This document shows, in pieces, positions 44,172 through 46,643 of a DNA stretch of 50,609 nt. The stretch comes from Chitinophaga pinensis (GTDB lineage Bacteria; Bacteroidota; Bacteroidia; NS11-12g; UBA955). The stretch is from NCBI GenBank assembly GCA_945860565.1, contig CAMAQS010000009.1:1-50609 (forward strand). The letters are read 5' to 3'. Both the position numbers and the translations under genes were made by a program. The notes beneath the pieces were generated by a model. The model searched no databases. It was not told where the DNA came from and saw nothing but the letters and a program-made list of their open reading frames with translations. Each line of letters opens with the position of its first letter. Position 1 is the stretch's first letter.

Positions 44172-45506
44172 TTATTCGATATTCCCTTCTGGTTTTGTCG
44201 ATTGATTCAGGTTGTACCAATCAATTTTTCTCGACAAATACATTACCGTAGACAATACAATAAACAACCCAATGCTGCCAATAAGTAATGCCATGTCTTC
44301 CAGTTGAATAATCACAAAAATGAAGCTATATAACAATGCCAATATCCCTGCCACCATCAGTGCAATTTTGGTATTTTTTAAAATGGCTTTTACATATCCC
44401 GTCACCAGAATAAGAGTGGCCAAAGCCGAGACCAAATAAGCCAAGTTAAAATTCAACTGCTCTGAAATGGATAATAAAAGGGTGAAAAATACAATTAATG
44501 CAAATCCCACCAAAATATATTGAATTGGGTGTATAAACACCTTTTGCATGATTTCAACGAAAAAGAATACAATAAATGTAAACGCAATGAACAATATAGC
44601 ATATTGAATGGACCTGAAGGACTTTTTGTAGTTGTCTACTGTTAACAGCAGTTCAAATCCGAAATCGGAATTTTCAACATTTTGGTCGTCGTTGATCCAC
44701 TGTTGGGGAAAATTGCGGTTTAAGTGCAGTACGTTCCAGTGGGCTGAAAAACTATCACCGGTATTGTCTCTATCATCAGGCAAATAAGCACCAGTAAACT
44801 TGGGATCAGACCAACTTGACTTGATGTTTACATCCGTAATTTTCCCTACAGGAGAGAAAAACATTTGTTGACTCCCTTTTAAATTTACCAAAAACTTAAA
44901 ATTGTGTTGTTGGCTGTCTTTTGGAAGGATGAGGACGCTGCTGTTTATGGCCGGATTTACCACTTTTCCAGATTCGTTTCCTGGATTAAAGAAATAACGT
45001 GAATTGTCCCAATTGAGTTCAACTTGTTTTTCAATGCCTCTCAAATCGGAAATGCCTACCACGAGTTTTGCTTTGTCAAACTGAAATTGCGACAAAGGCA
45101 CTTCTGCATTTTCAAATTTAAATTCGCTGAAGGAGCCCGAAATTTCGATGTTGCTGTTATACACCACCACATCAAAAATTCCTCTATCTAATTTTTGGGG
45201 GATGACTTTTCCGTCGATTTTAAGTTGTGTGGGCAATATTATCAGCCATTTGGTTTCGGCATTAATGCGGATTGCGGTATCACGGCCACTTTTTACTTTG
45301 GTGTATTTTACATAAGGAATGGTTAAAAAAGGACCACGAATGGTTTGGGCTTCTCCCCATTTGGAACTCACTTCAACGATGGCTTCGGATTGCTTATCTT
45401 GTCTATCGGTAATGAGGGAATGGATCATGCTCGTGGGGATGAGCAACAGCAGGACTATCAATACGATGATGCCGAGCTTGAGGTAGATGTTGTGTTTGAG
45501 GTTCAT
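44172..45506 (-). CDS. creD: CreD-family inner-membrane protein
   Basis: LLLLIPTSMIHSLITDRQDKQSEAIVEVSSKWGEAQTIRGPFLTIPY, multi-TM C-terminal half with PIQYILVGFALIVFFTLLLSISEQLNFNLAYL. Confidence 0.93.
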   Translation of the reverse strand: MNLKHNIYLKLGIIVLIVLLLLIPTSMIHSLITDRQDKQSEAIVEVSSKWGEAQTIRGPFLTIPYVKYTKVKSGRDTAIRINAETKWLIILPTQLKIDGKVIPQKLDRGIFDVVVYNSNIEISGSFSEFKFENAEVPLSQFQFDKAKLVVGISDLRGIEKQVELNWDNSRYFFNPGNESGKVVNPAINSSVLILPKDSQQHNFKFLVNLKGSQQMFFSPVGKITDVNIKSSWSDPKFTGAYLPDDRDNTGDSFSAHWNVLHLNRNFPQQWINDDQNVENSDFGFELLLTVDNYKKSFRSIQYAILFIAFTFIVFFFVEIMQKVFIHPIQYILVGFALIVFFTLLLSISEQLNFNLAYLVSALATLILVTGYVKAILKNTKIALMVAGILALLYSFIFVIIQLEDMALLIGSIGLFIVLSTVMYLSRKIDWYNLNQSTKPEGNIE

Positions 45507-45569: not shown

Positions 45570-45670
45570 GATGAAGTTGGTTTTTTGTTCTTTTATTTCT
45601 TGTTCTTCGGTTTCTTCTTCGGTATGTTCTTTGGAGTTTGTTCTTTTATGTTGTTCTTTCGTTTTTTAAT

Positions 45671-45860
45671 TTGTGTACTTTTTGGCTTGACCCAAAAAGT
45701 ACCAAAAAGGTCAAGGACTGCAACGGACTTCCAACTTCATCTTGATACCTTCCGAATCACGACGGTGATCTCCTCATCCTTCGGAGCTTCCTTGTGATTT
45801 CGCGGAAGCTATTGGCGTTGAAGGTTGCAAATCCCTTGAGGTCCGTTCCCTAGCCTCTAA
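45671..45860. repeat. Structured repeat-like element with a possible H-type pseudoknot and nested hairpins
   Basis: GTACTTTTTGG/CCAAAAAGTAC (11 bp) with loop CTTGAC complementary to downstream GTCAAG; ATCAC-GACG-GTGAT; AGCTTCC/GGAAGCT; outer AACGGAC/GTCCGTT. Confidence 0.6.
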
Positions 45861-45874
45861 ATAATGCTGTTATT

Positions 45875-46260
45875 GTGGTTTTTTTTGTTTTTGTTCTTTG
45901 GCCCGTTTGCTGTTGTTCGTTTGCTTTGGCTTTTTGTTCTTCGGTTCGTTTACGTTTGTTTGCTCTGGTATTCTGTTCTTCGGTTCGTTTGCTTTGGCTT
46001 TTTGTTCTAAGCTTTGTTTGCCTTCGTTTTTTGTTCTTTGGTTCGTTTGCTTTGGTTCGTTTGCTTTGGTTCGTTTTCTTTGGTTCGTTTTCTTTGGTTC
46101 GTTTGCTTTGGTTCGTTTGCTTTGGTTCGTTTGCTTTGGTTCGTTTACTTTGGTTTGTTTACCTTGGTTCGTTTGCACTAGTTTGTTTGCTTTCGTTTAC
46201 TGTTCTTCGGTTTGTTTGTAGTTGTTCGTTTAATTCGGTACTTTTGATTTCGGTGACTGT
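45875..46260. repeat. G/T-rich minisatellite: 14-bp unit GTTCGTTTGCTTTG, 11 contiguous copies at 46041-46194 plus degenerate flanks
   Basis: Units at 46041, 46055, 46069, 46083, 46097, 46111, 46125, 46139, 46153, 46167, 46181; less regular related sequence from about 45875. Confidence 0.93.
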
Positions 46261-46394: not shown

Positions 46395-46643
46395 ATGAAA
46401 ACCGATATACATCCAAAAAACTATCGTAAAGTTGTGTTCAAAGACATGAGCTGTGATCATAGTTTCATTACACACAGTTGCGTAGATACAAAAGAAACAG
46501 TTAAATGGGAAGATGGAAACGAATATCCATTGTACAAACTAGAGATTTCTTCTCAATCTCACCCCTTTTATACGGGTAAACAAAACTTAATCGATACTGC
46601 AGGACGTATCGACAAGTTCATGAGACGTTACGGAAAGAAATAA
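46395..46643 (+). CDS. rpmE2: 50S ribosomal protein L31 type B
   Basis: [82 protein letters not shown]. Confidence 0.96.

Follow-up and report, generated by a model that had tools for sequence, protein, structure and literature searches.

A dispersed structured element with a near-invariant internal loop in Bacteroidota: a candidate small RNA gene carried by compact transposons

A short structured stretch of DNA lies between creD (44172-45506, minus strand, PF06123) and the L31 gene rpmE2 (46395-46643, plus strand, PF01197) in a genome assigned to Chitinophaga pinensis. All coordinates refer to the window, which is the whole 50,609-nucleotide stretch that was analysed, unless another locus is named. 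An earlier reading of the sequence, made without database searches, had described positions 45671-45860 as an element with several hairpins and a potential pseudoknot, lying in a degenerate G/T-rich region, and had suggested that it might belong to a dispersed non-autonomous repeat or a noncoding RNA family. The locus thus raises the question of what this element is: a mobile repeat, an RNA gene, or both. The explanation that we favor, and hold to be fairly probable, is that it is a small noncoding RNA gene dispersed by compact non-autonomous transposons.

Copies of the element and their surroundings

The strings quoted in the sequence-only reading are all found where it had placed them, and the G/T-rich tract that it described is present. 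On one flank of the window copy, a degenerate T/G-rich TTGTTCTTCGGTT tract is recognized by inspection of the sequence (45577-45669). On the other flank is a 14-bp tandem array of CTTTGGTTCGTTTG with 21.6 copies (45896-46197), which is crossed by spurious ORFs of 102-142 codons. The genome is a draft of 156 contigs and has a second full copy of the element, 91% identical to the window copy, with a truncated copy 195 bp from it. A T/G-rich tandem tract likewise surrounds this second copy and its truncated neighbor, here with a 13-bp unit TTGTTCTTTGGTG (arrays at L012 5254-5326 and 5583-5709). Because the G/T tract is found on both sides of both copies, tract and element may be linked in their movement or growth; insertion of the element into a pre-existing tract, as had been proposed, is not demonstrated. 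The order creD-rpmE2 is not preserved among congeners, and therefore no empty site can be read at this locus. Neither terminal inverted repeats (TIRs) nor a target duplication was found around the window copy.

BLAST against 57 relatives gave partial matches in eight genomes beyond the window genome, several of them with multiple copies. The part shared by these sequences (minus strand of the window) was aligned and used to build a covariance model, R1. Among 71 genomes of the family, R1 found 63 matches in 13, including 19 in G034, 11 in G021, eight in G457, seven in G015, and two in the window genome. Elsewhere in the window's genus (14 further members), the sole R1 match is a weak one in G005. 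With a wider model, R2, six further carriers came from five additional families of the class, one of them (G731) with 12 copies. The core of the window copy (45740-45818, minus strand) scores 85.2 bits with R1 and 76.2 bits with R2. The element family is found in 20 genomes of at least seven families of the class, with one to 19 copies in each, on both strands and mostly at intergenic sites. Its distribution is patchy, and since scoring in the large samples was restricted to about a dozen candidates for each genome, these figures are lower bounds. In a sample of the phylum, scored with R1 on the 11 top candidates of each genome, the window genome gave the sole match. No match to the element was found in phage and plasmid collections. 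The earlier reading had CTTTTTGGCTTGACCCAAAAAG..GGTCAAG sequences recurring between genes of other Bacteroidota, and similar sequences do exist in relatives. The element is multi-copy and dispersed, as suspected.

A conserved fold, a conserved loop, and a pseudoknot

On the minus strand, the window copy is predicted from folds and from covariation in 83 relatives to form a rod, i.e., a single long imperfect hairpin (45704-45855). Its 5' end is placed near 45850-45855 and its 3' end at a T-tract, 45708-45704. Covariation was evaluated on a structural alignment, A3, of 83 copies from 20 genomes. In A3, 93.3% of cells pair and double-sided changes occur in 19 of 21 pairs, although copies from one genome are not independent of each other in these counts. 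The covariation score is 0.635, compared with 0.182 for shuffled alignments; sliding the partners gives 0.16 at most. The refuting case named at the outset was a single copy without homologues or covarying base pairs; copies, homologues, and covarying pairs were all found, the last as expected of an RNA family.

From the outside inward, the rod is built of the following stems, given in plus-strand letters. The outer closing stem pairs AACGGAC (45722-45728) with GTCCGTT (45841-45847). It rests on the sequence and the folds, had already been recognized, and the same closing helix is seen in relatives. In stem A (helix 1), CTTCCG (45749-45754) pairs with CGGAAG (45803-45808), on the basis of both covariation and the fold. 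In stem B (helix 2), covariation pairs ATCAC (45756-45760) with GTGAT (45794-45798); the counterparts in relatives, written as RNA, include AUUUC/GAAAU, AUGCC/GGCAU, and ACCAC/GUGGU. These two long-range stems replace two local hairpins of the sequence-only reading. For ATCAC-GACG-GTGAT, the supposed partner TGAT (45766-45769) is part of an unpaired loop, and the same holds for CTT (45787-45789) in AGCTTCC/GGAAGCT. The rod is capped by an apical hairpin, CUCC-(loop)-GGAG on the minus strand (45770-45786), with a covarying stem (helix 4) that pairs CTCC (45770-45773) with GGAG (45783-45786). The sequence of this hairpin varies among genomes and also within G034.

Between stem B and the apical hairpin is the conserved internal loop. 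Its 5' side, AAGGAAG on the minus strand (45787-45793), is 96-100% identical in the 83 copies. In the window, GG (45791-45790) is paired and AAG (45789-45787) is unpaired. The 3' side, AUCACC on the minus strand (45764-45769), is 87-100% identical, with AUCA (45769-45766) unpaired and CC (45765-45764) paired. The loop is therefore asymmetric with a fixed 3x4 form, AAG against AUCA, between G-C pairs. Column by column in A3, GGAAG/AUCACC is 87-100% identical in the 83 copies, while the surrounding stems are variable yet complementary.

This loop bears on the idea that the elements are an ordinary functionless family of miniature inverted-repeat transposable elements (MITEs), in which one arm is rewritten from the other by template switching during replication, giving the appearance of covariation. 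G-U pairs occupy just 18 of 1542 cells in the core of A3, which is rare for an RNA, and missing G-U intermediates would fit arm-to-arm copying. The repeats, the patchiness, the palindromic inserts, and the broken cores of G015 (see below) would fit such a family as well. However, the unpaired GGAAG/AUCACC was kept across at least seven families while the stems changed. Neutral arm copying would erase conserved mismatches, and we therefore consider it quite unlikely.

Just past the T-tract is an 11-bp hairpin with a 6-nt loop, CTTGAC (45675-45702, strand unassigned). As had been noticed, GTACTTTTTGG (45675-45685) is perfectly complementary to CCAAAAAGTAC (45692-45702), and the loop can pair with GTCAAG within GGTCAAG (45709-45715, strand unassigned). 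Relatives provide covariation for this pseudoknot. CTTGAx is matched by xTCAAG of the hairpin loop, and the variable sixth pair is C-G, A-T, or T-A. It is Watson-Crick in 31 of 36 copies, compared with 12.7 expected, and none of 2000 shuffles was as good. The pseudoknot is genuine in one branch of the element family. In G016, G026, G034, and G457, a hairpin exists at that place without loop-strand pairing of the CTTGAx/xTCAAG type.

Other hairpins are found around these units. Four loci of G034 (L118, L122, L125, and L129) and one of G652 (L255) have a second hairpin, inverted, at the opposite end of the unit, with its own loop-strand match of other sequence (GGTGCC/GGCACC; ATCGCC/GGCGAT). Secondary hairpin inserts (e.g., CTTGTCCCTGACTGAAGCGAAGTGGAACGTCGGG and GTCCGTCTTCTGACGGA) interrupt the terminal hairpin at its loop or linker in G021 (L102, L104, and L106) and G046 (L032, L035, L038, and L156), as if small palindromes inserted preferentially there.

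Strand, transcription signals, and gene context

Both strands of a 201-nt stretch containing the element fold better than all of 200 shuffled sequences. The minus-strand fold is the more stable (-72.4 kcal/mol, z -6.0, compared with -64.9 kcal/mol, z -4.9, on the plus strand). The minus strand also has more G-U pairs (302 vs. 206) and more purine-purine mismatches. In the window, the T-tract immediately 3' of the rod (45704-45708, CTTGACC-TTTTT on the minus strand) is a putative intrinsic terminator. Of the 83 copies, 56 have a run of five or more T 3' of the rod on the minus strand, and 22 have one on the plus strand. G731 opposes this trend, with plus-strand T-tracts in 11 of its 12 copies.

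Candidate promoters point to the same strand. A perfect (10/10) match to the Bacteroidota promoter motif TTTG-N17-TAnnTTTG exists on the minus strand immediately 5' of the rod in G457 (at -33) and in G046 (at about -36), two genomes of different families, and G034 has a 9/10 version before the rod. Its -7 box, TAnnTTTG, corresponds to the consensus of flavobacteria (PMC9723704). On the plus strand there is no promoter match of 9/10 or better. The window copy and most genomes have no recognizable promoter in front of the rod. From the promoter and terminator signals we infer that the minus strand is transcribed.

How the copies lie among genes was examined for 60 of them. Convergent gene pairs flank 17 and divergent pairs three; among copies between codirectional genes, 18 are sense and 13 antisense. 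The copies avoid promoter-rich gaps and show no strong strand preference. Such placement fits mobile cargo and not a leader RNA or riboswitch. A cis-acting 3'-end element, i.e., a terminator or mRNA stabilizer captured downstream of genes, would account for the excess of convergent over divergent pairs and for the T-tract after the rod. Nevertheless, codirectional copies occur in both senses, a terminator has no need of a conserved internal loop or a pseudoknot, and in three genera the rod has a candidate promoter of its own. We give this explanation little credence.

Rod-shaped RNAs with bulges also include 6S RNA, and a 6S-like decoy that traps RNA polymerase would share with the present rod its internal loops and approximately its length. 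The element is multi-copy and mobile, however, and its 3x4 loop is unlike the large bubble at the center of 6S RNA. The 6S-Flavo model (RF01685) had no match at the element and none in eight genomes, where controls likewise had no match. We regard a 6S-like role as extremely improbable. Nothing relevant was matched among the 4227 families of Rfam 15, at gathering or permissive thresholds.

Carriers, cargo, and the choice between RNA and DNA

In one genus, g2 (G015, G471, and G028), the element lies inside units of 377-663 bp that are bounded by TIRs, CACATCTGTCCAAA/TTTGGACAGCAGTG. Perfect 9-bp target duplications flank three of ten units, and two more have matches of 8/9 and 7/9. Pooled, 58 of 90 positions match, where the null mean is 38.8. 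One unit (L115) combines a perfect 9-bp duplication with an intact core. These sequence marks identify the g2 units as transposed carriers, and in this genus the non-autonomous repeat suspected earlier takes the form of TIR-bounded units with target duplications. A 1341-bp sequence, G028:C21:520-1860 (L216 520-1860), has the same intact-looking ends as the g2 MITEs and a broken IS4-type transposase with remnants of PF14294 (DUF4372) and PF01609 (DDE_Tnp_1). It is an apparent relative of these MITEs.

In G015, most units (29 sites) have kept the terminal hairpin and lost the intact core. Since some of these core-less units have 9-bp target duplications, the core is not needed for movement of the carrier and can be considered cargo. 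The middle of the IS4-type MITEs at G015 L196-L215 is hypervariable: the core arms are replaced by GC-rich palindromes (e.g., CCGCCGCTCGCTT..GGGCGGGG and TTGCCCCCACCGAGTTGC..GTGGGGGCAGG), and many of these copies are at contig ends.

Outside g2, carriers have other ends, as judged by eye from alignments. The flanks in G034 resemble a different IS, with apparent ends AGGGTCTGCTGAAAAA, often at AATT. The left end of the G457 unit is TAGTCAATCCTTACTAAC, and a hairpin of its own, CCACCTTTTTTCGCCAAAAAAGGTGG, begins the G021 unit. None of the units of G034, G457, and G021 yielded a regular target duplication. At two G021 sites without a model-detected core (C34:122699-122724 and C34:209479-209504), the end hairpin CCACCTTTTTTC..GAAAAAAGGTGG is found, and it may spread by itself. 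A RAYT/Y1 transposase was considered as the mover and rejected for want of linkage to the copies: no element was found within 30 Y1_Tnp loci, and Y1_Tnp genes exist in carriers and non-carriers alike.

The chief rival of an RNA gene is that the structure acts as DNA, a hairpin or cruciform recognized by a transposase, a recombinase, or a chromosome-organizing protein. Selection would then preserve Watson-Crick complementarity and a protein-binding loop. This would explain why G-U pairs are nearly absent from the core despite double changes in nearly all of its pairs. Inverted hairpins at the unit ends in G021, with similar ones in G034 and G652, and the tolerance of either orientation away from divergent promoters also agree with it. 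On the other hand, stability, purine-purine mismatches, the T-tract, and the promoters all favor one strand; G015 carriers duplicate without an intact core; and no Y1/RAYT transposase gene adjoins the copies. We consider a DNA role somewhat unlikely, though it deserves to be taken seriously. Because of the minus-strand T-tracts, candidate promoters, and stability, RNA is the better reading, though not a proven one. Established here are the dispersal of the element, selection on its fold and loop, the pseudoknot, and, in one genus, transposition of the carrier.

As a small RNA gene, the window copy would be read on the minus strand, starting near 45855 and ending near 45704. The transcript would fold as a rod approximately 150 nt long and terminate at the U-tract. 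The near-invariant GGAAG/AUCACC loop, at its fixed place between covarying stems, would be where a partner acting in trans, probably a protein, binds. With less certainty, binding of that partner may be the reason why the loop has persisted while carrier and stem sequence changed. Copies would spread as riders in MITEs, with the rod not required for transposition. The terminal hairpin and pseudoknot would cap the unit and would form only at the DNA level or when transcription reads through. It is conceivable, but on balance unlikely, that a mobile RNA gene has switched among unrelated transposon carriers and has been kept for the cellular activity of its RNA.

By eye, the core of the window (45793-45764, minus strand) and its relatives, AAGG-hairpin-AUCACC with GGAA in the hairpin loop in several genomes, resembles the 3' end of 16S rRNA, which consists of AAGGUA, helix 45 (loop GGAA), and GGAUCACC in succession. 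The Rfam rRNA models did not report this likeness. As a lead only, the resemblance means that the core could serve as a decoy for a binding or modifying factor of the 16S rRNA 3' end.

If transcribed, the element represents a new Bacteroidota RNA family that owes its spread to several kinds of transposons and has a recognition loop that is nearly frozen. The reason for the presence of a conserved RNA in a parasite, and the host component that it binds, would then come into question. The constancy of the loop means that the partner could be identified by a single pull-down. Even as DNA, the element is an unusual structured repeat, and the covariance model enables its annotation in genomes and metagenomes of the class.

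The family is apparently undescribed, and its kind is that of a transposon-borne structured RNA or a structured repeat family; no description was found in the openly accessible journal literature searched. Known systems share parts of its character. 6S-Flavo (RF01685) and Flavo-1 (RF01705) are Bacteroidota RNAs listed in PMC2864571, and like the RNA predicted here they are structured and noncoding and belong to the same phylum. REP/BIME elements with RAYT transposases (PMC2817692) are likewise dispersed intergenic palindromes in both orientations. In contrast to the two RNAs, the present family is mobile, multi-copy, and without an Rfam match. Unlike REP/BIME elements, it is much longer, has an internal loop and a pseudoknot, and has no RAYT gene beside the copies examined. 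The omega RNAs of IS200/IS605 TnpB/IscB are structured, transposon-carried, and contain a pseudoknot. The predicted RNA resembles them in all three respects, while here no nuclease or transposase gene is attached and the carrier is an IS4-type MITE or another short unit. The closest likeness in the carrier itself is to IS4-family MITEs of the DUF4372/DDE_Tnp_1 type, given the matched TIRs, the 9-bp duplications, and the decayed transposase relative of the g2 units. While known MITEs usually consist of their ends and filler sequence, the element here is a structure with a near-invariant loop, and this structure is common to G034, G457, and G021, whose carriers have other ends.
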